Shown here: piece after piece, positions 23,960 to 45,826 of the stretch
Layout of the letters: each line of letters opens with the position of its first letter
How positions within the stretch are numbered: the first letter of the stretch is position 1
Virus record (IMG/VR): IMGVR_UViG_3300042889_000803
Span: 1-46,795 of that record
From: a virus
Length of the DNA: 46,795 bases
Strand: one strand, 5' to 3'
Made by a program: the position numbers and the translations under genes
The notes under the pieces: generated by a model
What the model saw: the letters and a program-made list of their open reading frames with translations, nothing else
Told to the model about the DNA's origin: nothing
The model's database searches: none

Positions 23960-24059
23960 AGTGTCTCCTTGTGTGTTTGTGCTATTATATAGCCTATTAA
24001 ACTCCAAGGTCAATAGTTTTTCACTATAATTATTTCTATTAGGCTTATAGCTTTGTTTA

Positions 24060-24085
24060 ATAAAGAAACCCGCCGGAGCGGGTTC
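24060..24085 (-). terminator. Terminator of the tmRNA transcript
   Basis: Minus strand AACCCG-CUCCGG-CGGGUU followed by UCUUUA. It lies just after the tag-coding part. Confidence 0.85.
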
Positions 24086-24094
24086 TGCTATTTT

Positions 24095-24455
24095 GGATGA
24101 CAAGGTATAACTACCTCGCAAGTGCTGTTTCTTAGGCAGCTAGTGCAAATGCGTCATCGTTTAAGGCGACGTCGACTTGCATGTACTTGAATGTATTTGC
24201 GTTTGCATTTACGATTTTTGTATTTTACGTGACCCCACGTGTTGAGTCGTTATCCTATCTCACCCTGTCGAAACCATGGCAGGCCCATTTAAACACACTT
24301 TGGTTTATTAAGAGTTATAGCTATGCTAAAGAGCTCCTGGGATACCAAACCTGATCTTTTTACAGATTCAAGTATGCTTAGGTGGACCTGGCGGGAGTCG
24401 AACCCGCGTCCAGAACGCCTTACTTTACAACTTTGTCCATTCAAGGACTACAACA
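24095..24455 (-). ncRNA. ssrA: Circularly permuted (two-piece) tmRNA
   Basis: The acceptor piece comes first: T arm GCGGG-UUCGACU-CCCGC and 3' end CAGGUCC-A-CC at 24390-24381. The 5' piece starts downstream at 24286 with GGGCCUG, which pairs over 7 bp with CAGGUCC, then CCAUGGUUUCGACAGGGUGAG, typical of tmRNA. A pseudoknot (GACUC/GGGUC with ACGU/ACGU) precedes the tag frame, GCA at 24206 to TAA at 24132: 24 codons ending NDDAFALAA. The 94-nt intervening segment would be removed. Full CCA is not encoded. Boundaries of the acceptor 5' end and the coding 3' end are approximate. Confidence 0.88.
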
Positions 24456-24460
24456 ATTCC

Positions 24461-24529
24461 TTACATAAAAACATGTATCAAAACAAATATAACAATTAAA
24501 ACTGTTACAATGAATTGATACGCTTTCAT
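24461..24529 (-). CDS. 22-residue membrane micropeptide (candidate)
   Basis: MKAYQFIVTVLIVIFVLIHV then FM and stop: one complete transmembrane helix. It starts 1 nt after the stop of the cold shock gene, so it could be made by termination-reinitiation, and ends just before the tmRNA acceptor part. No family known. Composition alone (17 hydrophobic of 22) argues against chance only weakly. Confidence 0.4.
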   Translation of the reverse strand: MKAYQFIVTVLIVIFVLIHVFM

Positions 24530-26580: not shown

Positions 26581-27285
26581 ATGGATAAAATTATAGCAAC
26601 GTTAGTGATGACGCATATCACAATAGTGTGTGTTACACTATACCTACATAGAAGCCAAGCACATAGGGGGCTTGAATTCCACCCAATTTTAAGTCACTTT
26701 ATGCGAGCATGGTTATGGCTAACTACAGGCATGACTACCAAGCAATGGGTAGCAGTACATCGCAAACATCATCAGAACACAGACGTAGAAGGTGATCCGC
26801 ACTCGCCCCATGTATTTGGAATTTGGAATTTAGTTTTTGGTGGAGTCAAGTATTATAATCAAGCAGGTAGTGACGCTCATATGGTTATGAAATACGGAAT
26901 GGGAACTCCCAAGGACTGGATTGAACGTAAACTTTATACACCCCACCATCGCCTTGGAGTTCTTGTAATGCTGATCATAGATCTATTGTTATTTGGGCCA
27001 TGGGGATTTCTAGTGTGGGGTGTTCAGATGATATGGATTCCATTCTGGGCCGCTGGCTTTATTAATGGCATAGGACATTGGTGGGGATATCGCAATGGGG
27101 AAACTAAAGACTACAGTCGCAATGTAGTTCCTTGGGGTATATTAATCGGTGGTGAAGAACTACACAACAATCATCACTTGGATCCTGCTAATCCCAAACT
27201 GAGTCGTCGTTGGTTTGAATTTGATATTGGTTGGATGTGGTTTAAATTTTTCAGCTACGTGGGCTTGGCAAAACTTAGAAGTTAG
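26581..27285 (+). CDS. Fatty acid desaturase (acyl-CoA/acyl-lipid delta-9 type)
   Basis: A 234-residue membrane diiron enzyme. The three His boxes are present: H23RSQAH28, H60RKHH64 and HNNHH (about residues 195-199), with the typical hydrophobic spans between and the late GIGHWWGYRN. It introduces double bonds into acyl chains and would make membranes more fluid. It is shorter than cellular desaturases (about 300) but keeps all metal ligands. The 3' end overlaps the convergent peptidase gene by 11 bp. Confidence 0.9.
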   Translation: MDKIIATLVMTHITIVCVTLYLHRSQAHRGLEFHPILSHFMRAWLWLTTGMTTKQWVAVHRKHHQNTDVEGDPHSPHVFGIWNLVFGGVKYYNQAGSDAHMVMKYGMGTPKDWIERKLYTPHHRLGVLVMLIIDLLLFGPWGFLVWGVQMIWIPFWAAGFINGIGHWWGYRNGETKDYSRNVVPWGILIGGEELHNNHHLDPANPKLSRRWFEFDIGWMWFKFFSYVGLAKLRS

Positions 27286-27997
27286 TAGCAATAAATTCTG
27301 CTTCGGGTATACGGGTACGAGTATTCTTACTGCCCAGTACTACAACAATTCTGCGTCCAATCTCAGTGTCCATCATTATAACAACGCATCCGCCCGACGC
27401 ATTAATAAATCCAGTCTTGCTAACTACAAAGTCGTGACGCTTGCCTATACTAGGATTAGTGTTATGAAATATAAACCATTTCTTTCTAATTTTAATTTTA
27501 ACTTCGCTAGTACGTGAAGCTAACACAATCTCTGGATATTTTGCAGCTTCCATTATAATGGAAATTAAATCTTCAGCAGTACTAATATTCATTAGATTAA
27601 GCCCACTAGATTCAACAAAACGAGTTTTTGTTAAACCTAATGATTCTACTTTATTGTTCATTGCTCTAACACAAGATGCCGAACCGCCTGGGTAGTGTTT
27701 ACATAAATCTAAACTTGATCGATTGTCTGATTTAACCAACGCTAATTGTATCATCTCCCCCCGTGTATAGGGTTTAATATATTCATTTAAATCTTGTTTA
27801 GCATCTAACACAACCATGGCCGTGACAAGTTTAGTTATACTGGCAATACTTCGTTGTTGGTCAGTATTTTCTCCATCTATAATCTTACCTTTGCTGTCTG
27901 CTACTAACCAGCTTTTAGCAGTAAGCGTTATGCCGCTTGATGGACTACTTACTAGTAGCGCGAAAGATACCATCCCAATCTTTAGGAAGTTTAACAT
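27275..27997 (-). CDS. D,D-carboxypeptidase/endopeptidase (peptidase S11, PBP-like)
   Basis: A 240-residue protein with signal peptide (LKIGMVSFALLVSSPSSG). The three penicillin-binding motifs are present: S53-x-x-K56 (ASITKLVTAM), SDN (VKSDNRSS) and KTG (VSKTGFINASGG). Enzymes of this type trim or cut peptidoglycan cross-links in the periplasm. It overlaps the end of the cyclase gene by 53 bp, so the two are coupled. It could remodel the wall for fibre export or help lysis. Confidence 0.9.
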   Translation of the reverse strand: MLNFLKIGMVSFALLVSSPSSGITLTAKSWLVADSKGKIIDGENTDQQRSIASITKLVTAMVVLDAKQDLNEYIKPYTRGEMIQLALVKSDNRSSLDLCKHYPGGSASCVRAMNNKVESLGLTKTRFVESSGLNLMNISTAEDLISIIMEAAKYPEIVLASRTSEVKIKIRKKWFIFHNTNPSIGKRHDFVVSKTGFINASGGCVVIMMDTEIGRRIVVVLGSKNTRTRIPEAEFIATNF

Positions 27998-30005
27998 TCT
28001 TCATATCCTTACAACGATCTATCCATAACTCGTAACTGTGATCCATTTGGCCGTTAAATGATCCTATTAAGTTTTTGCTCAATTCAATAGCTTGATCAAA
28101 CTGTTGATCTCTATACGATTGTAGCATCTGATTATGGTTTAGTCTAGCCGCTTGGTAAGAAGCCATGTTTACACCCTCTGTGTGTAATGGTGTGTAAATG
28201 CGTAGACCAATTGTTTTGCCTTTGACTGCGATGTTGTCCAATTCCAGTGTAAAAATTTCATCTTTAACTATGTCATTAGTATTAGGTCCAATAATTAACA
28301 ATACACCGTATGACTTTGTTTGTCCTTCTAAACGTGCAGCAGTGCTTACACTATCACCTAGCACGTCATAGCCGAACTTACTTTTAGCACCAATGTTACC
28401 AATCAATGTTTCGCCGGTGTTAACACCAGCACCCATACCAACTGGAGGTTTTCCACTGGCTGTAAGTTCTACGTTGAAATCTTCAATTGCTTTAATCATT
28501 TGCTGTGCTGTTTTGACAGCAGTGAACGCATGTCGAGGATCATCTAACGGAGCACCGTGTACGTGTAAACTGGCATCTCCAATGAACTTAATCAGTGTGC
28601 CATCGTTTGCTAATACAGGAATACTCAACGCTGTCATGTAGTCATTCATAATCTGTGTGAGTCCTTCTACATCATCACCAAAGCTTTCACCCAGTGTTGT
28701 AAAGCCACGCAGGTCGGTCATGACAATTGAAAGCTCTTTACGTTCGCCGCCTAATTTAATAAGCTCTGGATTCTTTTGTAGTCGTTCTACTATAGTAGGA
28801 TTAACATAACTACCAAATTGTTTCTTTATTTGTTGCTTCTGTAAGAACTCACTTACAAACTTAACACCATAAGTGTGAAGAGCAACAAGAATAAGACCAA
28901 ACGAGATTGCCGTCGCATCTGATAAGATGAGCCAACTACTGAAAGCCCACATAGTACCAGGGACGACGGCACCAACAATAACCACAGTAGCACCAATGCC
29001 AACATAAGTCCACCTCGATAAGAAAATTAATAATAAACCAAATGCTACAAGTGCTAGAATCTCAGCGCCATCCGCATAATCAGGACGCTGTATAACAACA
29101 CCATTAGCCATGGTTGTTATAACTGCAGCGTGTAATTGATGCGGGAACACTGCGCCAACTGCTGTGGGTACTGGATTAGAGATGCCCGCGGCTGTGGGAC
29201 CAACCACAACTATTGCTCGATTAAAATCTTTAGGAAGATCAGTAAGACTATACGATTGATTAGTTTGGCTCCAATCGATCCATATGCGTCCAAGGTTGTC
29301 TGTGGTAACAGGACCAAACTTGGGAATACGCATTTTCTCAACGCCACCTTCAAATAATTTTACTTGGAATGTTGAGTCGCCTGCGGCCACACGCAATGTT
29401 TCCATGGCTATGCTGGGATACAGTTTATCGTCAACTGACACAATTAGTGGCATACGACGATTAACGCCGTCTACTTCTGGTAGTGTACTAACGATACCAA
29501 CACCTGCCGCATTATTTTCTAGTTGCGGAATATTAGCAATAAGTCCTGGGTACTGAACTATTTGGTCTAACCATTCTGGCCCCATTACAGCACTGCCTGG
29601 AGCACGGGGAGTATTTTTAGTCTTATCGCTAGGCACTGATCCCAGTACTACAGGATACTGTTTAAGAGCAGTTCCGAGAACTGCGTCACCACCAGTACGA
29701 TCAGGCTCAGCCATAAGAACGTTGAGCACAACAAGGCCAGCACCACGAGCATACAGGTCTTTAATAATTTTAGCATATTCTGCCCTTGGTAATGGCCATT
29801 GGCCGTATTTGTCTAACGCGGCTTCATCTATATTAACTGTAACAATATTGTCAGGAGCAGGAACTGCTCTTGGTTGTGTAACCAGTGTGTCAAAATAACG
29901 TAGTCTTACGCTTTCAACAAATGAGGGGTCTGCAATTCGTATACCCACTACTAACGTTAGGGTTAATAGAGCAGTCCAAGGGCTTGTTAAGATTTTTTTT
30001 AGCAT
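27945..30005 (-). CDS. CHASE2-domain class III adenylyl/guanylyl cyclase
   Basis: A 686-residue sensor enzyme: N-terminal TM helix (about 8-25), periplasmic CHASE2 domain (about 30-300), three TM helices (about 305-390) and a class III cyclase domain (about 425-600). Metal aspartates are in VMTDLRGFT and KFIGDASL; the K of KFIGD and D of YDVLGD fit ATP binding. The usual VNxAARLE Asn is Ser here (VSTAARLEG), so turnover needs testing. It lies just downstream of the curli-like cluster. An ATAAATA box sits 4 nt before the ATG. Confidence 0.88.
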   Translation of the reverse strand: MLKKILTSPWTALLTLTLVVGIRIADPSFVESVRLRYFDTLVTQPRAVPAPDNIVTVNIDEAALDKYGQWPLPRAEYAKIIKDLYARGAGLVVLNVLMAEPDRTGGDAVLGTALKQYPVVLGSVPSDKTKNTPRAPGSAVMGPEWLDQIVQYPGLIANIPQLENNAAGVGIVSTLPEVDGVNRRMPLIVSVDDKLYPSIAMETLRVAAGDSTFQVKLFEGGVEKMRIPKFGPVTTDNLGRIWIDWSQTNQSYSLTDLPKDFNRAIVVVGPTAAGISNPVPTAVGAVFPHQLHAAVITTMANGVVIQRPDYADGAEILALVAFGLLLIFLSRWTYVGIGATVVIVGAVVPGTMWAFSSWLILSDATAISFGLILVALHTYGVKFVSEFLQKQQIKKQFGSYVNPTIVERLQKNPELIKLGGERKELSIVMTDLRGFTTLGESFGDDVEGLTQIMNDYMTALSIPVLANDGTLIKFIGDASLHVHGAPLDDPRHAFTAVKTAQQMIKAIEDFNVELTASGKPPVGMGAGVNTGETLIGNIGAKSKFGYDVLGDSVSTAARLEGQTKSYGVLLIIGPNTNDIVKDEIFTLELDNIAVKGKTIGLRIYTPLHTEGVNMASYQAARLNHNQMLQSYRDQQFDQAIELSKNLIGSFNGQMDHSYELWIDRCKDMKNVKLPKDWDGIFRATSK

Positions 30006-30035: not shown

Positions 30036-30233
30036 TTAATAAGCTAGCGGAATTTCTTCTAAAAACGGAAATTTTATTAATACAAACTCTCTGTATCGTT
30101 CTTCTACTACAAATTCAACATCGTTCCTGCGTACATAAAATTCCCCGCCGCATTCTTGTATATAATATCCTACTTCGTCGCTATACATCTTGTATTCTGG
30201 CGCATACATACGTAAGCTAAACATTATTATCAT
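30036..30233 (-). CDS. Hypothetical protein (65 aa)
   Basis: MIIMFSLRMYAPEYKMYSDE then a beta-rich part (VGYYIQECGGEFYVRRNDVE). The start at 30233 overlaps the stop of the curlin-repeat gene (TAATG), so it is the last cistron of the curli-like cluster. No secretion signal is clear. It could be a chaperone or regulator for the cluster but has no recognised family. Confidence 0.6.
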   Translation of the reverse strand: MIIMFSLRMYAPEYKMYSDEVGYYIQECGGEFYVRRNDVEFVVEERYREFVLIKFPFLEEIPLAY

Positions 30234-31381
30234 TATCTGCCCTGCGTGACTGTAATAGGGGCGCACCCGCCAGCTGTAGTACAGTTGTTTGTAATGGAGT
30301 AATACTGCTGTGTTGTGCCAGACTGTATTAGATTTAAACTAGAAGGTTGCGGTCCAGTTAATGTAACACTGGCCATATGGCTGGCGGTTCCTTCTTGTAG
30401 AACATCAACAGTTTTATTTCCACCACTTAGATTAACTTCAGCATAGTGACTTCCGCTGCCTTGTTGTTTTAGTATAAGACTATTGTTATTATCTTGAACA
30501 TTAACAAACGCACCTTTGGCGCCGCCGGTACTAGTCTGTTCAATTTTTACAGTATTGAAATTTCCAATAACTTGTAGATCAACATAGTTTACCTGCGTAG
30601 AACCGTTTCCTGTTTGTTTAATATCAATGTCGTTGCTCAACCCATTTCCATAGTAGTTAACGTAGTTTTGTTTAGTCCCAGATTGATCTACTACTACTTC
30701 GTTTTGTGTGCCAAGTTGTTCTATATTCACTCGACTGTCATTAGTTGTACGATTTACAAACGATTGTATTTTGGCTACATTAGTAGCACTAGCATTAAAC
30801 GGTGAAGCACTCCCTCCGCAACACAACGCCGGGGGCGGCGGCCCTGCTGGAGCGGCTGTTTGTCCAGCGGCTAACGGTTCTGAGCTCGGTGGAGTATATG
30901 CTTGTAATTGTGTGTTATTTGGATTGTCTTGAGTCACTGCCCAGTTGCCACTTTGTCCGTTATTATAACCAGCCCCAGTAGTGATCAATGTGCCCCACAT
31001 GCCGTTGCCGTTATAGAAGATAGCACCATCTGCTAGTGCTCTAAACGATCCTGTGTTGTTGATTGTTTTGTATCTTGTGCCGTCGCTATTGAACACTGCC
31101 ATACCATATGTACCGGGATTAGTAGTGCTATTGAAGAATCCAATATAACGACCATTTGCGCTAGCATCCTGCGTTTGTGCTTGAGTCCAACGTGCCGCCT
31201 GAGTAGTTTGAGTGGCATAGTTCACTGACGCATAGATATAACTAAAACCACTGGCATATAATCTGCCACCACTAATGTACCACTGTACATCAAATATCTG
31301 TGCTGTGCTAAGTTTTAGATCAGTAATGCCACCAAAGGCATTTGAACATACAAATAGTAAGAATATTAAAAAACGTTTCAT
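30233..31381 (-). CDS. Secreted curlin-repeat protein with N-terminal domain
   Basis: A 382-residue protein with signal peptide (MKRFLIFLLFVCSNAFG). Residues 20-190 are an Asn/Gly/Thr-rich beta domain; a Pro/Ala linker (APAGPPPPALCCGG) follows; residues 200-375 carry repeats of the curlin type (VNIEQLGTQNEVVVDQSG, DIDIKQTGNGSTQVNY, VKIEQTSTGG, LILKQQGSGS). Curlin repeats stack as amyloid beta-helices in CsgA/CsgB. The added N-terminal domain is not found in CsgA and may be an adhesin or receptor-binding part. ATGA overlap with the upstream FecR gene. Confidence 0.82.
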   Translation of the reverse strand: MKRFLIFLLFVCSNAFGGITDLKLSTAQIFDVQWYISGGRLYASGFSYIYASVNYATQTTQAARWTQAQTQDASANGRYIGFFNSTTNPGTYGMAVFNSDGTRYKTINNTGSFRALADGAIFYNGNGMWGTLITTGAGYNNGQSGNWAVTQDNPNNTQLQAYTPPSSEPLAAGQTAAPAGPPPPALCCGGSASPFNASATNVAKIQSFVNRTTNDSRVNIEQLGTQNEVVVDQSGTKQNYVNYYGNGLSNDIDIKQTGNGSTQVNYVDLQVIGNFNTVKIEQTSTGGAKGAFVNVQDNNNSLILKQQGSGSHYAEVNLSGGNKTVDVLQEGTASHMASVTLTGPQPSSLNLIQSGTTQQYYSITNNCTTAGGCAPITVTQGR

Positions 31382-32472
31382 GGTCTTCTCAATACACCAG
31401 TCTTCTGTACGATGTTTACTACGTTGCCTCCTGGATCTCCGCTACCAACAAACGTAAACGCATACTGATCGTTGTGACTAATAGCTACAAATGTGTTTGA
31501 ATCATATCCAGATGTTTTTACTTCAGCGTAATGATCTGTATTGCTTCTATATGCTGTACCCTTACCTTTGCTTTGTATATCAGGTGAATCATTCTTTTCC
31601 CATGCTACACAAACTGTAGTACTTGGATTACAACCTTTCTTACCATCGGCAAATGTATCTGGTAATAGTACAGGGTCGCTTTTCTCGTTGGCTTTTTCAA
31701 CACGCATGGCTATTTGTCGTTGGGCGTCTGCCTCCATTTCTTCCAGTTCAGTATCACGTTTACTTCTGCCAGACTCCTTAATTGCTTGTTGAATTTCTTG
31801 AGGCTTAACTAAGATAAGATTGTTACCAATTTTACCCTCAATAGTACTAACTACTACCGGAGCAGTTGGCATCATTGAGTTACTTGTTACGTAAGTAGCT
31901 TCAAAGGCTTTATCTAGGGTTACTGATCCCATACCTGTACTTACAGTAATACTACCCACTTTACAACGTTGTTCGTCTAATTCAAATTGTTTAGTATCTT
32001 TTTCATCTTTACAACTAGGCACTAGCATAATAAGACTTTGGCCTGTTTCGTCTACAGTCATGGTAAAGTCAGTGCCACGCACTGCTACTGTAGCTGTTGG
32101 AGTTTTGATGTTTACCTGTTGCGGATTATTTTTAGCAATCTGTCCGCTAGCATATCGAACAGTGCCCATACCGACCCTAAGAGCAAGTTTGCCCGCGTCT
32201 GATGCCTTAGGATCAAAAACAAAGTCGTCGATAAGTAGTCGACTGTTTTCTGTAATTTTGACTTTGGTATCATCTTTGAATGTAATGTTGCTTACACAAG
32301 CACCGGTAGTATATGTGTCCATGCTTTCAATCTCAGCACCCTTAACCCCTGACATCTTTTTCTTGTTGCGTTCAACTTCACAGGCTGTGCCCTTGTTTTC
32401 TGAAACCGTGCCGATACCAGCCCAAGAAGGGCTGGCAAATGTTAGCAGTAGGGCTAACAGTAAGACACGCAT
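31378..32472 (-). CDS. Secreted FecR-domain protein
   Basis: A 364-residue protein with signal peptide (MRVLLLALLLTFASPSWAG). Residues 20-160 match the FecR domain: TVSENKGTACEVER, KDDTKVKITENSRLLIDDF, VGMGTVRYASG and the closing TPTATVAVRGTDFTM. A helix-rich segment with coiled-coil character follows (about 230-270, AIKESGRSKRDTELEEMEAD), then a C-terminal beta domain. FecR domains are extracytoplasmic and often anchor or regulate surface structures. It sits between two curlin-repeat genes and overlaps one of them by ATGA. Confidence 0.82.
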   Translation of the reverse strand: MRVLLLALLLTFASPSWAGIGTVSENKGTACEVERNKKKMSGVKGAEIESMDTYTTGACVSNITFKDDTKVKITENSRLLIDDFVFDPKASDAGKLALRVGMGTVRYASGQIAKNNPQQVNIKTPTATVAVRGTDFTMTVDETGQSLIMLVPSCKDEKDTKQFELDEQRCKVGSITVSTGMGSVTLDKAFEATYVTSNSMMPTAPVVVSTIEGKIGNNLILVKPQEIQQAIKESGRSKRDTELEEMEADAQRQIAMRVEKANEKSDPVLLPDTFADGKKGCNPSTTVCVAWEKNDSPDIQSKGKGTAYRSNTDHYAEVKTSGYDSNTFVAISHNDQYAFTFVGSGDPGGNVVNIVQKTGVLRRP

Positions 32473-32474
32473 AA

Positions 32475-33302
32475 TTACCTCGCAATAGCTGTAGCTGGTG
32501 ACGCAATAGTTGTACTGCTAGTACGAACTGTGATAGTATTGTTGCTACCTTGTGTTTGAATATTTACAGTAGTATCGTTAGTACCTTGTTGCTGTGTAGT
32601 AATACTGTTGTAATCGCCAGTAGTCATCATAGCAAGATTATGGCCGTTTGCGCCAGCTGCATCTAACTGCTGTAGATTGAATACATTGGCATTTCCTGTA
32701 ACTACGTTTGACACTGTGCCTCTACTACTAAGCAAACTACTGGTCACTTGGTTATCATTACCAATCAAGTTTGTGCTAGTAACAATATTGCTACCAACTA
32801 GGTCTTGAATGATCATGTTGTTGTTACCAATAATCTGTTCTGTAATAACGTTTTGGCTATTTGTAGCGGCATTAGGATTACCAATAGTTAGTCTAGTTTG
32901 ATTACCATTACCTAACATATTAGTAGTGTAGCTGTTATTGCTGCCACGAATATTATATTGGCTACTGTTAGCATTTCCAGTTTGTGTAATGTCAACTATG
33001 TTTGTACTTCCAGTAATAGTGCCGTAGTTAGTAGAACTTGGTGCGTCTGGAGTCAGTGTGGTAATACCTGTTCCTGCTACTGCGGTTGCCACAGTTGTAG
33101 TAACACCACCAACATTGTTGGTCCCACCAACTTGCTCGATAGTGATAGTATTGCTACTACCCACTTGTTCGATATAAACCTTGTTAGGACCTGTTGCTGT
33201 CTGAGCACCACTTATGGTGGCAAAGCCCAAAAGCATCACTGTGAGTAATTTTCTCGACAACCCACAACCGCCTGTCATTGTTTGTTTCATTTTTGTTAAC
33301 AT
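32475..33302 (-). CDS. Curlin (CsgA/CsgB)-like repeat protein
   Basis: A 275-residue protein with signal peptide (SRKLLTVMLLGFATISGAQ). The mature part is a run of curlin-like repeats: VYIEQVGSSNTITIEQVGG, NIVDITQTGNANSSQY, LQQLDAAGANGHN, ITTQQQGTNDTTVNIQTQGS, with the Q-x-G-x-x-N pattern that forms the amyloid core. It is longer than E. coli CsgA (about 151). The start may be 33302 or the ATG at 33290; no strong SD lies directly before either. Confidence 0.85.
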   Translation of the reverse strand: MLTKMKQTMTGGCGLSRKLLTVMLLGFATISGAQTATGPNKVYIEQVGSSNTITIEQVGGTNNVGGVTTTVATAVAGTGITTLTPDAPSSTNYGTITGSTNIVDITQTGNANSSQYNIRGSNNSYTTNMLGNGNQTRLTIGNPNAATNSQNVITEQIIGNNNMIIQDLVGSNIVTSTNLIGNDNQVTSSLLSSRGTVSNVVTGNANVFNLQQLDAAGANGHNLAMMTTGDYNSITTQQQGTNDTTVNIQTQGSNNTITVRTSSTTIASPATAIAR

Positions 33303-33482
33303 TAGATTATTATTCTCTAATGTTGCTCCTTGGGGATTATCCCTCTTTTAGTTAATTTTATTTCTTACAACTTACCTCTTTACGAAAATATTTACTCAAT
33401 TAGCTGTAGAAATTATACTCTGCTGTTATTTTCTCAACATGTAAAAAAATTTACACTGTTAAAAAATCAACACTTTCTCTGT
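33303..33482 (-). promoter_or_regulatory. AT-rich gap between csgG-like and curlin genes
   Basis: 180 nt with no gene. On the minus strand it holds a weak hairpin (UGUAAA/UUUACA with U run) after csgG, a TATAAT box near 33415 and an AAGGAGCAAC ribosome-like site near 33325. It may separate expression of the pore genes from the fibre genes. Confidence 0.35.
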
Positions 33483-34685
33483 TTAATTACCTAACTTGCT
33501 GTTTTGAATCCAACCGCCACGGCCGGTTCCATCTGACATTGTTACTCTCCACCACCCTTCTATTCCGGGTTGTTTTACATCTACTACGGTGCCTTTAGGT
33601 ATCCACCATTTACGTGTACTTGCTTCATTTTCACTTGCGTACAAGAAAGAATTTTCTAGTAGTGTACGTTGACCAAACAATGCCTTAGGTTCTTCTTTCT
33701 TTACTTCTGCGGGGGCACTGGGTACGGCCTCGGTTTGGGTTTTGGGTTGGGCTTGTGATTGAACCACGACATCTTTCTTCTCCTCTACTACCGGCGCAGG
33801 CACTATATTTGGTATAGGTGCTTCTATAGTTGGAATTACTGCGACTGGAGCACTTACTTTATTACTTTTAAATGCCCAGTGTCCCTTACGGGCGCCTTCG
33901 TTAATTGTGTTTACCACTGCTGCCTGTACTGCTACATCAATAGCCCTGTTAATGCTTTCGTTTATACTGCCGCCAACTTCACCTTCAAGGGCATTAGCGC
34001 CAGCGCCATATTGTGTACCATCGTCAACAAACCGAAGTAATGTTAGTTTGTCCATATAACTTAGGACTGTTTTAGTTACTGTGACCGTAGTTAATATTTC
34101 ACCCGTTGCTACACTAACTGTTCGTAAAGTAACTGTTACTGTATCTGATTGGTATTGTGTACTAGCACCTATGCCAAATATTCTTACGCCACTTCCACCA
34201 GTAAGTGTATTTGAATCGTAGCCAACAATGCCGCCTTCCATGATAATTCCAGCAAACATCATAGGAGGAAGAGCCTTAGCATCTTTGCCTTGATATTGTT
34301 CGCGCATCTGTCGAATCATTTGACGTTCTTTGATTAGGTTTTCTAATCCTACACGTTCTAACACAGTAAACCAACGAGCATCGCCCACATCTTGTAACGC
34401 TTTAATTAGATAGTTTTCAGCTCCCTGAGTAACTGCCGAACTTAAACTAGCAATTAACGGTTGTGACTTACGTTGGCCAGTTAAATCTCGGAACCCATAT
34501 ACTGCTACAGCAACAGGACCGCCTTCTGGTGGCAATAATTTATTTGAATCTTTCTTTAAAAATTTACTAGTTTCAACCGTTGGTTCGTCAAACTGATTAC
34601 CAGTTAACTTTTGTTTAATAGCTGAACCCGTGGCGCAGCCAGACAACACTGCTACAACTGCCAAGGATAAAAATGTTTGTCTCAT
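33483..34685 (-). CDS. csgG: CsgG-like curli secretion pore lipoprotein with C-terminal SH3 domain
   Basis: A 400-residue protein. The signal peptide ends in the lipobox LSGC (C17). Residues 40-270 match CsgG: VAVYGFRDLTGQRK, WFTVLERVGLENLIKERQMI, MFAGIIMEGGIVGYDSN, TQYQSDTVTVTLRTVSVATGEIL and the following TVTVTKTVLS. CsgG forms a nonameric outer-membrane pore. After a Pro/Glu/Lys linker (about 285-345) it has an SH3-like domain (about 345-400, RKWWIPKGTVVDVKQPG ... GGWIQNSKLG) that cellular CsgG lacks. SD AAGGA before the ATG; 9 nt after csgF. Confidence 0.9.
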   Translation of the reverse strand: MRQTFLSLAVVAVLSGCATGSAIKQKLTGNQFDEPTVETSKFLKKDSNKLLPPEGGPVAVAVYGFRDLTGQRKSQPLIASLSSAVTQGAENYLIKALQDVGDARWFTVLERVGLENLIKERQMIRQMREQYQGKDAKALPPMMFAGIIMEGGIVGYDSNTLTGGSGVRIFGIGASTQYQSDTVTVTLRTVSVATGEILTTVTVTKTVLSYMDKLTLLRFVDDGTQYGAGANALEGEVGGSINESINRAIDVAVQAAVVNTINEGARKGHWAFKSNKVSAPVAVIPTIEAPIPNIVPAPVVEEKKDVVVQSQAQPKTQTEAVPSAPAEVKKEEPKALFGQRTLLENSFLYASENEASTRKWWIPKGTVVDVKQPGIEGWWRVTMSDGTGRGGWIQNSKLGN

Positions 34686-34694
34686 AATTTATCC

Positions 34695-35168
34695 TTAAAA
34701 TCCAAATGTACCACTTGGTACTTTCATTTCTGTAAATTGTCTTGGGTCAAGAGCGTTTTCAATACGAACAATAATAAATGTGCCGTCTACTTTCCATGTG
34801 ATGTTATTGCCAGCTACTGTCATTTCTCCGCAAACTCCGTTGGTTACAGCGCATTGTGGAGCACCATTAGTGCCAAAAAGGCTATCTGTAATTTGTTTGG
34901 CTAATTGTGAGTAAATGCGACTTTCTAAGTTTGCTTGAAATTTAGCTTGCGGGGTGTTTAGTTTGTCACTTTCTTCTTTTGCTTTTAATGCTTCGCCAGC
35001 CGCCTTATTTTTGTCTTTAGCTTGAGTTTCTAATTGATAAAGTGTTAAGACGTGAGAACCGTAGCCAATACCGCTAAAGGATGGACTACTAAAATTATGT
35101 TGTAATTCTGCTGAATTAGATGCCGATGCAACTAATATAGCCCCAATTGCTACTAGTAAGGTTTTCAT
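34695..35168 (-). CDS. csgF: CsgF-like curli assembly protein
   Basis: A 157-residue protein with signal peptide (MKTLLVAIGAILVASASNS). The mature N-terminus LQHNFSSPSFSGIGYGSHVL matches the CsgF segment that plugs the CsgG pore (F-x-NPxFGG). The rest (SRIYSQLAKQITDSLFG ... CGEMTVAGNNITWKVDGTFI) follows the CsgF helix-strand order. The leader before the ATG is identical over 16 nt to that of the 24847 gene. It is the first gene of the pore part of the cluster. Confidence 0.85.
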   Translation of the reverse strand: MKTLLVAIGAILVASASNSAELQHNFSSPSFSGIGYGSHVLTLYQLETQAKDKNKAAGEALKAKEESDKLNTPQAKFQANLESRIYSQLAKQITDSLFGTNGAPQCAVTNGVCGEMTVAGNNITWKVDGTFIIVRIENALDPRQFTEMKVPSGTFGF

Positions 35169-35260
35169 CGATTCGCTCCCGATATACCGTATAGTATTTA
35201 CGGTAAAGGGGCAACTAATTATAATAGTGTATAATTTGTTCTAGATTAAGAACTTGATGA

Positions 35261-37160: not shown

Positions 37161-37167
37161 TATTTAG
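37161..37167 (-). promoter_or_regulatory. CTAAATA late-type promoter
   Basis: CTAAATA lies 7 nt before the ATG at 37153, slightly further than the 4-5 nt of its relatives, inside the end of the bilin reductase gene region. Confidence 0.5.
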
Positions 37168-37850
37168 TGGATTTCTGGGAAGAGGCATTCCTGTATGAAT
37201 ACTTGTACATCCTCTTCAGATAGCCCTAAACTGACCATTACACGGGGGGTATGTGGGTTACATTTCTGATTTTGTGCGTAATAGTTCTGCGCTTCAGTAG
37301 TATTTTCTGCTGTATTATTTGTTTCTGCTACAGTTTCTAAGTAATGCGCTAGGGTAGTTTTAGCCATACTAAAGATTTGCTCTAGTTCTGCTTCATCGCT
37401 AACATTGCCCGCGGCTACCATACTAGGACTAAAGATGTTAGTGGCCCATTCTGGAAGAGCACGTGGCTTACGCCATTCTAACTTACTAACTTCTCCAGCA
37501 AACCATTCCATCATAGGATGGTCAGGATCACCAGCCCGGCTGTAGTCGTGAAAACAGCCAGTCATTTTGTTCTTACCAGCTATTACATCAAAGCCGTATA
37601 TTGGAGCAGGGTTGTGCGTATGTGGAAAGATACAACAGTGCATCATCCATAATCCTTTTGTTGCTCTAGCATCCACCACATCAACGTGAGCACGACGATA
37701 TCTATCACTACTCCACACGCGATTAACCCATCCCGGCTGGTTAAAACGGTCCATACCTGGTTCATGAATTGCAGTTCCAGTAGCATCAAATGACTCCTCG
37801 AGGAGATATTGGATTTCTATTAAGGTATCCCAGACTTTACTTTGACTCAT
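37164..37850 (-). CDS. Ferredoxin-dependent bilin reductase (PcyA/PebS/PcyX-like)
   Basis: A 228-residue protein with the family fold marks: RRAHVDVVDARATKGLWMMH, then FPHTHNPAPIYGFDVIAGKNKMTG with the conserved Asp of the active site, CFHDYSRAGDPDHPM, and a C-terminal helical part. These enzymes reduce biliverdin with electrons from ferredoxin. It overlaps the heme oxygenase stop by 14 bp, giving a coupled heme-to-bilin cassette. The exact product cannot be told by eye. Confidence 0.85.
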   Translation of the reverse strand: MSQSKVWDTLIEIQYLLEESFDATGTAIHEPGMDRFNQPGWVNRVWSSDRYRRAHVDVVDARATKGLWMMHCCIFPHTHNPAPIYGFDVIAGKNKMTGCFHDYSRAGDPDHPMMEWFAGEVSKLEWRKPRALPEWATNIFSPSMVAAGNVSDEAELEQIFSMAKTTLAHYLETVAETNNTAENTTEAQNYYAQNQKCNPHTPRVMVSLGLSEEDVQVFIQECLFPEIH

Positions 37851-38394
37851 CAGTGTACTCTACTAACTCGAGCATTTCCTTAAACATATCTGCGGCGTAT
37901 TGGAAACATACTTTAGCTTCATCGGCCATGCTGTCGTCTAGTCGTTCACGAATGGCAATCTTAAGAGCGTCAGGATCACTAAACTGATAATATTTTCCAG
38001 ATCCTGGAACTCGTTTGGCAATCATTTGACCACCTGCTAAATCGCCCATGTGCCGCACATACAAGTGTGCCATTAGTCGTTTAGGATCGTCCTTAATACT
38101 TAGAATATATTTGATATAGTTTTCAACTGCTGGCAATATAGTAGGCTCAGCGTCATCCTTGTTGTGTAATTCTAGATAGTCTGCTAAGATAGCAGGTGCC
38201 CGACGCATATCAGGAAGGCCAGTAAGTAGCCCATGTGGCATTGAACAAACTTCTAAAATCTCGTAGCACGGATGCTGGTTTTTTAAATATGCTGAATATA
38301 ATTTAGGATTAATTTTTCCTGAAAATAATATTTTAACAAATGGTTGCGTTTCGGCATTTTTATGTGCTTCGTGGGTTAACTCTTTTAAGCTCAT
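37837..38394 (-). CDS. Heme oxygenase
   Basis: A 185-residue protein. The proximal heme ligand is probably H11 (LTHEAHKNAE) and the distal helix carries the glycine motif MGDLAGGQMIAKRV. It opens heme to biliverdin, CO and iron, using ferredoxin or similar electrons. The start overlaps the ClpS stop by 4 nt and its stop overlaps the bilin reductase start, making ClpS-HO-reductase a coupled series. Lengths and motifs fit bacterial and cyanophage heme oxygenases. Confidence 0.9.
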   Translation of the reverse strand: MSLKELTHEAHKNAETQPFVKILFSGKINPKLYSAYLKNQHPCYEILEVCSMPHGLLTGLPDMRRAPAILADYLELHNKDDAEPTILPAVENYIKYILSIKDDPKRLMAHLYVRHMGDLAGGQMIAKRVPGSGKYYQFSDPDALKIAIRERLDDSMADEAKVCFQYAADMFKEMLELVEYTDESK

Positions 38395-38693
38395 TCTTCT
38401 TCCATTTTAATTTGTAAGGGATGTCCATTTGTGCGAGCAAGGTTAGTAGATTCAACTGCTTTGGCTTCAGCAATTTCAAAACTATAAACGCCAGCAACAC
38501 CGCTACCAGTCTCGTGAACTTGAATCATAACATCGTCAGCACTAGTGGGATTGTGTTTGAATATTTCAATCAATAGTCCTACTACAAACTCCATAGGGGT
38601 ACTGTCGTCATTCAATAGAATAACTTTCCATTGTCTAGGCTCGTTCACAGTTACTTTAATTTTTTCATCTAGTTGGATATCGGTACTAGGCAT
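38391..38693 (-). CDS. clpS: ClpS adaptor protein
   Basis: A 100-residue protein with the ClpS core: QWKVILLNDDSTPMEFVVGL, then VMIQVHETGSGVAGVYSFEIAEAKA. ClpS binds ClpA and delivers N-degron substrates to ClpAP. The acidic N-terminal extension is short. A terminator precedes it, so it starts a new transcription unit (ClpS, heme oxygenase, bilin reductase). It may redirect host proteolysis. Confidence 0.9.
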   Translation of the reverse strand: MPSTDIQLDEKIKVTVNEPRQWKVILLNDDSTPMEFVVGLLIEIFKHNPTSADDVMIQVHETGSGVAGVYSFEIAEAKAVESTNLARTNGHPLQIKMEEE

Positions 38694-39238: not shown

Positions 39239-41143
39239 TTACTTCTTCTCTGTGTCATCAACCTCTTTGAACTCCGCATCTACGGTTTGTTCACCCTGTG
39301 GTTGTGTAGGGCTTGCGTTGGCTGATTCTGCTGCCTGTTTCTTTGTTAAGATAGGGCTAGCAGATTCAAATAGCTTTGAAATAGCTTCGTTAATCTTTTC
39401 GACTTCCTCGCCTTTCAATGCTTCATCCAAACTTGTCTTAGCTGTTGTATACGCAGTTGTTTCTTCTTCAGATAATTCAGCTTTAAATTCTTCAAAGTCT
39501 TTACCTAGACTGTGTGCTGTCGACTCAGCTTGATTACGTGCGTTGACTAGTTCAACAGTCTTCTTATCAGACTCTGCGTTTTCTTCAGCTTCTTGTACCA
39601 TACGTTTGATTTCAGCTTCAGTTAATCCTGAATCAGACTTGATAGTAATCTTATTTTCTTTGCCAGTGTTTTTATCTTTGGCACTTACGTTAAGAATACC
39701 GTTGGCGTCAATGTCTAGGGTAACTTCAATCTGTGGAGTACCACGTAATGCTGGAGCAATACCTTCAAGATTAAACTCGCCTAACAACTTATTATACTTA
39801 AACAGTTCACGCTCACCTTGGGCAACTTTAATAGTTACTGCTGGCTGATTGTCTTCTGCTGTTGAGAATGTTTGTGAGTGTTTAGTTGGAATAGTTGTGT
39901 TCTTTTGAATCAACTTGGTAAACACACCGCCCATTGTTTCAATGCCCAATGTCAATGGTGTTACGTCTAACAACAACACGTCTGTCTTGTCGCCTGACAA
40001 CACTGCTCCTTGGATGGCAGCACCAGCGGCAACTGCTTCGTCTGGGTTAACGTCTTTACGTGGAGCCTTGCCAAACAGTTTCTCAACTGCTTCTTGTACT
40101 TTAGGCATACGTGTTTGACCACCAACAAGGATAACTTCGTCAATGTCAGCGGCAGTAACATTAGCGTCTTTCATTGCTGTCTTACATGGCTCAATTGACC
40201 GTTGAATCAATGCTTCAACCATCGATTCAAATTTAGCACGACTGATAGTCACGTTCATATGCTTAGGGCCACTTGCGTCTGCTGTAATGTATGGCAAGTT
40301 AACACTAGTGCTTGCGGCGCTAGATAATTCAATCTTGGCTTTTTCAGCTGACTCTTTTAAACGTTGTAGGGCCAACATATCTTTCTTAAGATCAACACCG
40401 TTGTCTTTCTTAAACTCATCTACTAGGTAATCCATAATAGCTTGGTCAAAGTCTTCACCGCCAAGGAATGTGTCGCCGTTTGTGCTTAGTACTTCGATTT
40501 GTTTATCGCCGTCAACGTTGGCAATTTCAATAATGGAGATATCAAATGTACCGCCACCTAAGTCGTATACAGCAATCTTACGATCACGTTTGTCTGCTTT
40601 GTCAACTCCGTATGCGAGTGCGGCCGCAGTTGGTTCGTTGATAATACGCAATACTTCTAAGCCGGCAATACGGCCTGCGTCTTTGGTTGCTTGACGTTGG
40701 CTGTCATTGAAATAAGCCGGGACTGTAATAACAGCCTGTGTAACAGCATGACCGAGATAGTCTTCTGCTGTCTTTTTCATTTTTCTGAGTACTTCAGCTG
40801 ATACTTGTTGCGGTGCTAGTTTTTCGCCGTTGGCTTCGATCCATGCGTCACCGTTGTCTGCCTTGACAATACTGTAAGGCATCAAGTTGATATCCTTTTG
40901 GACTTCTTTTTCGTCAAACTTACGTCCAATAAGACGCTTGCTTGCGTAGATAGTATTTTTGGGGTTTGTAACTGCTTGTCGTTTTGCTGTTGCGCCAACT
41001 AGGATTTCGTCTTTGGCATACGCAATAACTGATGGTGTTGTTCTAGCACCTTCGCTGTTTTCAATTACTTTAGCAATTCCGTTTTCTAGGATCGCTACAC
41101 AGCTATTTGTTGTACCTAAATCGATACCGATGATTTTGCTCAT
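39239..41143 (-). CDS. dnaK: DnaK (Hsp70) chaperone
   Basis: A 634-residue Hsp70 of normal bacterial length. N-terminal signature [54 protein letters not shown]; substrate domain from about 390; an acidic-end tail ([14 protein letters not shown]). It is a complete chaperone, likely functional with host DnaJ and GrpE, which are absent from the window. The 5' UTR carries a ROSE-like thermometer. Confidence 0.97.
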
Positions 41144-45295: not shown

Positions 45296-45826
45296 TTATT
45301 TGTAAAAAATATGTCGGCCAATTTTAGCCACTTTTTCCCGTTTCCACCCAGGATTAATATAATCACCATGGAAATACATAGCATCTTTAACAGATGGTAA
45401 CCGGAATCCTTCTAGTAATACCTTTTTTGCCACTTCCATTGATTCGGTATACACTGGACCGTTCATTGGCTTTTTAAGCGATGCTGAATCACAGTACCAG
45501 CTGAACTGGCAAAGTACCTTTTCGTAGACAATATTTTTTTGGTAAACTACTTGACAAATATCAGATGGAAATTGTACGTTTTCCGTTCTGTTAATTGTAA
45601 CTTGTGCTACAGCAACTTTACCTTCAAATGGCTCACCACCTGCTTCATGGTAAATGTTACGTGCTAGACAGTCTAGTTGTTTCTGCCTTAGCTGTGCTGT
45701 AACTGGGCTCACTTGTGCGTGAGCATCCTTTAGGACTGTCAGCTTATGGTCAACTGCGTTATATCCTACTACTGATACCACTAGCAGTGCTAGGGCATAT
45801 ACAAAAAACTTAATGATGCGTATCAT
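45296..45826 (-). CDS. Cell-wall hydrolase, SleB/Hydrolase_2 family (endolysin candidate)
   Basis: A 176-residue protein with an N-terminal membrane/signal helix (FFVYALALLVVSVVGYNAV). The catalytic domain (about 55-175) has the SleB marks: CLARNIYHEAGGEPFEGKVAVAQVTINR with the active Glu (YHEAGGEP), QFSWYCD and the C-terminal MYFHGDYINPGW. This family cuts peptidoglycan glycan strands (lytic transglycosylase-type). The signal anchor suggests a SAR-type or secreted endolysin. SD AAAGGAG. Confidence 0.9.
   Translation of the reverse strand: MIRIIKFFVYALALLVVSVVGYNAVDHKLTVLKDAHAQVSPVTAQLRQKQLDCLARNIYHEAGGEPFEGKVAVAQVTINRTENVQFPSDICQVVYQKNIVYEKVLCQFSWYCDSASLKKPMNGPVYTESMEVAKKVLLEGFRLPSVKDAMYFHGDYINPGWKREKVAKIGRHIFYK

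Follow-up and report, generated by a model that had tools for sequence, protein, structure and literature searches.

Curli genes have been described in several groups of phages. Zaragoza-Solas et al. reported csgF and csgG in pelagimyophages and proposed "sibling capture" as their role (PMC7029224), while Buchholz et al. proposed a role in lysis for the genes of the methylophage Melnitz (PMC9004378). Podoviruses of the HTVC023P type carry CsgA/B, FecR and cyclase genes, a set that was re-identified in myoviruses (PMC9599517). Since 2020 the role of phage curli genes has been puzzling, and the proposals run from a lysis pore to sibling capture. Here, we analyze such a cluster in the IMG/VR record IMGVR_UViG_3300042889_000803, a stretch of viral DNA of 46,795 bases that we call the window. 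Read along the minus strand, it encodes CsgF, CsgG, curlin 1, a FecR-domain protein, curlin 2, an open reading frame (ORF) of 65 amino acids and a CHASE2-domain cyclase. We consider it probable that these genes are a viral form of type VIII (curli) secretion, by which the infected cell exports and displays an adhesive fiber. Curlin 2 points to a display function: its N-terminal heads are swapped while its tail and the neighboring genes stay conserved. More tentatively, the module may be a re-targetable adhesive, in which an exported amyloid shaft carries a minor subunit whose exchanged head resembles the tip of a tail fiber, and whose late display would capture neighboring hosts or exclude rivals. 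The features of the locus are as follows.

34695 to 35168, minus strand: CsgF homologue, 157 amino acids (Pfam CsgF 3.1e-10; PHROG 35372 4e-30)
33483 to 34685, minus strand: CsgG homologue, 400 amino acids (Pfam CsgG 3.9e-45; lipobox LSGC)
32475 to 33302, minus strand: curlin 1 (cur1), 275 amino acids (Curlin_rpt 7e-4)
31378 to 32472, minus strand: secreted FecR-domain protein, 364 amino acids (Pfam FecR 6.2e-10)
30233 to 31381, minus strand: curlin 2 (cur2), 382 amino acids (Curlin_rpt 6e-5)
30036 to 30233, minus strand: small ORF, 65 amino acids (weak similarity, Pfam DUF1330 4.8e-5)
27945 to 30005, minus strand: CHASE2-domain class III adenylate/guanylate cyclase, 686 amino acids (CHASE2 3e-41, Guanylate_cyc 1e-15)
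27275 to 27997, minus strand: D-Ala-D-Ala carboxypeptidase/endopeptidase, family S11 (Pfam Peptidase_S11 2.7e-37)
35168 to 35205, minus strand: candidate late-type promoter of the operon, just before CsgF, with TAAATA at 35200

A first-pass annotation, made from the letters of this stretch, had named CsgF, CsgG, the FecR-domain protein, two curlins and the small protein, and all of them are present on the minus strand as judged by Pfam matches. The gene overlaps that it described are also real, with ATGA joining the FecR-domain gene to cur2 and TAATG joining cur2 to the small ORF; its description of the cluster has to be corrected for a gap of 180 base pairs (bp) between csgG and cur1. The small ORF exists, but it naturally begins with the ATG at 30233; the GTG at 30266, which had been taken as its start, lies 33 bases further upstream. 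It is coupled to curlin 2 by the TAATG and is at most a putative member of the module as seen across relatives. The end of the cluster had been overlooked, as the CHASE2 cyclase is the last conserved gene. Each of the first five proteins starts with a Sec signal peptide or a lipobox, and the relatives are alike in this respect as read from their sequences.

Curli in a phage are not in themselves a novelty, because HTVC008M, Melnitz and the HTVC023P-type phages share the gene set, and the module has already been published for pelagiphages and a methylophage. HTVC008M (gp14-gp19) and Melnitz match the window in all six genes and in their arrangement on one strand, with the cyclase downstream of cur2, and the window thus has the order CsgF-CsgG-curlin-FecR-curlin-cyclase of this pelagiphage type of viral type VIII secretion. 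The two systems resemble that of the window in lacking CsgE and in their occurrence in T4-like phages, to which the window lineage probably belongs as well. The HTVC008M proteins are 31-46% identical to those of the window, except for curlin 1, which matches weakly. Unlike HTVC008M and Melnitz, the window lineage has relatives of jumbo size, neighboring genes for heme oxygenase, bilin reductase and ClpS, an SH3b domain on CsgG and another head type on curlin 2. The HTVC023P-type systems also comprise CsgF, CsgG, one or two CsgA/B proteins, FecR and often a cyclase, are alphaproteobacterial-like and lack CsgC, CsgD and CsgE (PMC9599517). They differ in the histidine kinase that precedes CsgF; in the window this place is taken by an ORF of 649 amino acids with unassigned function and without a Pfam kinase domain, and HTVC008M has no histidine kinase in its annotated upstream stretch either. 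The curli system of E. coli (csgBAC/csgDEFG) shares with the window the CsgG pore, CsgF homology and curlin repeats, whereas the window lacks CsgE, adds the FecR-domain protein and the cyclase, and has a large head on curlin 2. The residues at the Tyr-Asn-Phe constriction of CsgG differ from those of E. coli. We considered a phage-specific constriction and rejected it, since the bacterial relatives L091 and L095 are also without Tyr-Asn-Phe.

To place the locus among its relatives, viral contigs were scanned with CsgG, which gave 80 loci; these are metagenomic and partly near-identical, and duplicates were removed for counts (59 distinct). The order CsgF-CsgG-cur1-FecR-cur2 occurs in every locus that is long enough, and the cyclase lies downstream in most of them. 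Comparison with close relatives gave ratios of nonsynonymous to synonymous substitution rates (dN/dS) of 0.04-0.26 for all genes, with 0.07-0.15 for CsgF, which indicates purifying selection and speaks against the idea of passenger DNA without function. Nothing in the window's own 46.8 kb matched a capsid or terminase gene. Relatives of 353, 280 and 285 kb that carry the CsgG-to-cur2 cluster also encode a T4-type gp23 capsid protein and terminase; this supports the earlier placement in a phage, and the window lineage is therefore probably T4-like and jumbo-sized. Several of the samples from which these sequences come are probably from lakes.

The window encodes the components expected of type VIII (curli) secretion, namely a CsgG pore lipoprotein, CsgF and curlin-repeat subunits, but not the CsgE gate. 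The absence of CsgE had been noticed before and was confirmed, as no PF10627 match was found in the window while the E. coli control was positive; no search with dedicated models was made for CsgC or CsgD. A missing CsgE is compatible with the viral type, because published viral and alphaproteobacterial sets are without it (PMC9599517). The CsgF homologue has a signal peptide followed by the CsgF-type start HNFSSPSFSGIGYGS and is probably the extracellular plug or adaptor of the pore. In CsgG the lipobox (residues 14-17) is followed by the pore domain (58-272), a Pro/Lys/Glu-rich linker and a C-terminal SH3b-like domain (344-399), and residues 2-274 match solved E. coli CsgG structures (3e-46). 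The SH3b assignment rests on a family profile (2.4e-5; Pfam SH3_4 gives 0.0098 for the segment alone) and is clearer in the relative L024 (Pfam SH3_3 8e-14). Such a proline-rich linker with one or two SH3b domains after the pore domain is found in 19 of the 59 distinct CsgG proteins; those of HTVC008M and Melnitz stop short of this region. SH3b domains often bind the cell wall, and by analogy the tail may tether the pore to it. As far as we checked, this tail on CsgG of the window's subclade appears to be a new detail.

Both curlins carry curlin repeats and might form amyloid. Curlin 2 lies above the Pfam cut-off for Curlin_rpt and curlin 1 just under the family cut-off. Curlin-type motifs number 3-5 in the curlins against 0.2-0.5 in shuffled proteins (5 against 0.52 for curlin 1 in the window, 5 against 0.2 for curlin 2), although one of the three motifs, Q.G..N, shows no excess over shuffles in curlin 2. 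In CsgG and in the FecR-domain protein the motif counts do not exceed those of shuffles, and curlin-like repeats that we had considered in the C-terminus of the latter were discarded on this basis. Curlin 1 consists of CsgA-like repeats without a head domain, is present in all relatives that are long enough and is probably the main fiber subunit. Curlin 2 is composed of a signal peptide, a head of family "A" (about residues 18-165), a proline linker, a CCGG motif that introduces the tail in the window lineage, and a beta-solenoid (about 209-382). The tail has an invariant Gln about every 24 residues (Q37, Q48, Q97, Q121, Q144, Q168 and Q195 of the tail alignment), and AlphaFold models it as a beta-solenoid of 14 strands with confidence (pLDDT) mostly of 85-97. 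The model of curlin 2 resembles viral proteins already named "Curlin associated" (structural match 2.7e-15).

The large N-terminal domain of one curlin was a good observation of the first-pass annotation and turned out to be the most informative part of the locus. Among the relatives, the solenoid tail carries heads of family A (as in the window), of the F5/F8-type C (best 2e-12), of PA14 type (best 1e-11), of other families including one weakly like NCBIfam NF038132 (2e-8), or no head. The heads stand alone or in series, with the architectures A, A+B, B, C, D, E+B, E+C, F or none, and a second scan with the curlin 2 tail alone returned the same repertoire. The exchange is most evident in close pairs. 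Loci L015 and L022 are 87% identical in CsgF, 88% in CsgG, 79% in cur1, 75% in FecR and 81% in the curlin 2 tail, but between their heads there is no significant similarity (E 0.40). Heads are likewise replaced between L062 and L078 and between L021 and L040, and across all three pairs the neighboring proteins and the tail are 72-89% identical. The same is seen in the marine group around HTVC008M. The gp18 protein of this phage has a PA14 head (2.7e-6), whereas L187 has an unrelated head on a tail 81% identical to that of gp18. In L133, L139 and L140 the FecR genes share 84-91% identity with that of HTVC008M, yet the heads are again other ones. On the CsgG tree the 9 head states require 22 changes, against a mean of 30 and a minimum of 25 for shuffled labels, and heads thus partly follow ancestry but have often been exchanged; the count of 22 was made without the marine rows, which have long branches, and the exact number is soft, as support for several inner branches is weak. 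Heads that are exchangeable, some of them known binding folds, fit a curlin 2 that is displayed outside the cell. CsgA fusions with VHH domains are exported and active on curli (PMC9477280), which makes passage of a head through CsgG plausible. The combination of a conserved solenoid with swapped N-terminal heads appears to be new as far as we checked: the main texts of PMC7029224, PMC9004378 and PMC9599517, in the parts covered, do not mention PA14, discoidin or lectin, and for the terms checked the covered text of PMC9599517 does not mention binding heads on the second curlin. Beyond these three papers we found no report of phage curli in the open literature; subscription journals could hold one.

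In the FecR-domain protein, the signal peptide is followed by a FecR domain from residue 52, with no other N-terminal domain. Its model resembles the periplasmic C-terminal signaling domain of PupR (Foldseek 1.6e-4) and shows a weak match to a cell-surface anchoring domain (5ix9; 62 residues, target TM score 0.71, E 0.028). A cytoplasmic anti-sigma part, as expected of the FecI/FecR pair, was not found in it. Since the protein is secreted and lacks this part, it is not a FecI/FecR iron regulator, which corrects the reading of this gene as one. The cyclase is probably a periplasmic sensor. It keeps both metal-binding Asp residues, and in the window's subset its catalytic Asn is replaced by Ser. 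The motif there reads VSTAARLE, and a second subset, which shares the gene order, has VNLASRLE; the Ser and Asn subsets could be two lineages or the result of gene exchange. For the two proteins together, a periplasmic sensor pair is the likeliest arrangement, because in an operon of Burkholderiales a secreted FecR-domain protein (FecR-LysM) stands beside a CHASE2 sensor and disruption of the response-regulator gene gave a strain without biofilm (PMC5192318). Unlike the window, that operon has a kinase in place of the cyclase, and no curli genes were seen in the part of the source that was available.

In 47 of the 59 distinct relatives the motif TAAATA stands no more than 150 bp upstream of CsgF (10.9 expected from shuffles), and in the same relatives it never lies upstream of CsgG or cur2. 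The cyclase, too, is preceded by TAAATA, at a distance of 10 bp, in the window and in some relatives. The motif is similar to TATAAATA, the late promoter of T4, which stands 40 bp upstream of gp23 in Melnitz, and by this analogy it might serve as a late promoter of the module; that the module is a single late operon is a reasonable guess. The enrichment before CsgF appears to be new as far as we checked. Within the window, TAAATA further stands 10-11 bp before the start of six minus-strand ORFs (3777, 13661, 15312, 16803, 23335 and 30005), and 15 of the 34 minus-strand sites are followed by a start within 120 bp, against 3.3 expected. The sites at 10-11 bp are a candidate promoter class that would give nearly leaderless mRNAs.

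A working model can be drawn from these data. CsgG would form a lipoprotein ring in the outer membrane. CsgF would cap this ring, and in the window's subclade the SH3b tail would keep it close to the peptidoglycan. Curlin 1 would pass out through the ring and build the shaft, and curlin 2 would join as a minor or tip subunit, presenting a head that binds glycans or other surface structures. In the periplasm, the FecR-domain protein might be the partner of the CHASE2 cyclase, sensing the state of the envelope or fiber assembly and changing cyclic AMP (cAMP), or might act as an anchor. With a T4-like late promoter before CsgF, fibers would be made late in infection. The most likely benefit would be that infected cells are held to sibling or neighboring hosts, which would help released phages to reach new hosts, or that infected cells are shielded against rival phages; heads would change to track changing host surfaces. 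The swapped heads in the window lineage and in the relatives of HTVC008M point to display and make the function testable. If the model is true, infection would alter cell adhesion in lakes and seas.

Several observations weigh against it. Foldseek found nothing significant for curlin 2 in the PDB (best E 1.2; the CsgA fibril 8enq at E 4.9), and the head A of the window has a low-confidence AlphaFold model, no known fold and no Pfam name. CsgE (PF10627) was found neither in the window nor in nine long relatives, HTVC008M or Melnitz, which leaves gating unexplained. The late promoter is argued by analogy, and TAAATA does not stand directly before gp23 in HTVC008M or in the jumbo relatives that were read. 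We found no amyloid or secretion experiment on any phage curli in the literature, and no clumping of cells was seen with Melnitz (PMC9004378), the curlin 2 of which is headless in our scan.

Among the alternatives, the one that survives best, although it is unlikely, is that the module serves mainly for signaling: the FecR-domain protein and the CHASE2 cyclase would sense the envelope, raise cAMP and reprogram the host, and the fiber would be a ligand or by-product. The presence of the cyclase in most relatives and the FecR-CHASE2 pairs of bacterial biofilm operons (PMC5192318) speak for this idea. However, some loci that keep CsgF to cur2 together have a displaced or inverted (L049) cyclase or none that was seen nearby, and the Ser at the catalytic position in the window's subset is a further argument against it. 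Slightly less probable is a lysis or depolarization device, with CsgG/CsgF as a gated secretin or pinholin-like pore and the curlins as accessories. It has been proposed with structural modeling and a glutamine-riboswitch argument (PMC9004378), and a pore for which no CsgE gate is found could leak. Yet the window has a separate endolysin (45296-45826, PHROG 938 1e-18), both curlins and the FecR-domain protein are kept in order under purifying selection, and a hole offers no reason for curlin 2 to exchange its heads. Moreover, CsgG resides in the outer membrane and for this reason would not depolarize the inner one. Hence, of the two functions first suggested for these genes, the secreted fiber is supported and the hole for lysis or export has become less likely. 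It is more doubtful still that the curlins are virion parts, that is, extra tail or capsid fibers with receptor-binding heads. Head swapping does resemble the evolution of tail fibers, and the F5/F8C head weakly matches a PHROG labeled tail protein (3e-7), but the Sec signal peptides of the curlins, CsgF and the FecR-domain protein and the lipobox of CsgG mean that these proteins leave the cytoplasm, where virions assemble. Least probable is a pore that takes up large nutrients during infection, for example iron or vitamin complexes, with the FecR-domain protein in an iron response. PMC7029224 and PMC9599517 suggested this reading, and the name FecR fits it, but the FecR-domain protein starts with a signal peptide and is without an anti-sigma part, and curlins with exchangeable heads would not be needed for uptake.

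Some neighbors of the secretion module deserve mention. The S11 peptidase gene overlaps the cyclase gene and adjoins the module only in some relatives (L004, L030, L032, L043 and L050); it is possible that the enzyme trims peptidoglycan for the pore. A fatty acid desaturase gene on the plus strand (26581-27285) converges with it. Just upstream of the module, an overlapping run encodes ClpS, heme oxygenase and a ferredoxin-dependent bilin reductase (37164-38693; Fe_bilin_red 5.5e-15), and these neighbors are kept in many loci too. Bilin genes of the PcyX kind have been reported from phages (PMC11480375 and others). Near ClpS lies a full-length DnaK/HSP70 gene (39239-41143; 7e-257). More than 30 tRNA genes are found on one strand between 6200 and 22169, with small ORFs between them. 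At 24041-24480 there is a permuted two-piece transfer-messenger RNA (Rfam tmRNA_permuted 105.9 bits, beta_tmRNA 94.6 bits), which is only a hint of a betaproteobacterial host.

A cellular origin of the module could not be read from a scan of contigs from bacterial genomes, since the matches were mostly phage-like contigs within metagenome-assembled genomes, and a search for a donor operon by FecR in 289 genomes of one bacterial class returned only widespread FecR-domain proteins and no clear candidate. The contigs L084-L090, L092, L093 and L097 carry part or all of the phage-type curli module in metagenome-assembled genomes named Flavobacteriaceae, Rhodobacteraceae, Pelagibacter and Pirellulales. 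Because of this module they look like misbinned phage DNA, and they could mislead claims of curli in these groups. Conversely, OR851715.1 (hit H7), an entry of 1,499 bases named Salmonella phage S.Kent 1-2-1, encodes CsgG and is possibly host chromosome deposited as phage.

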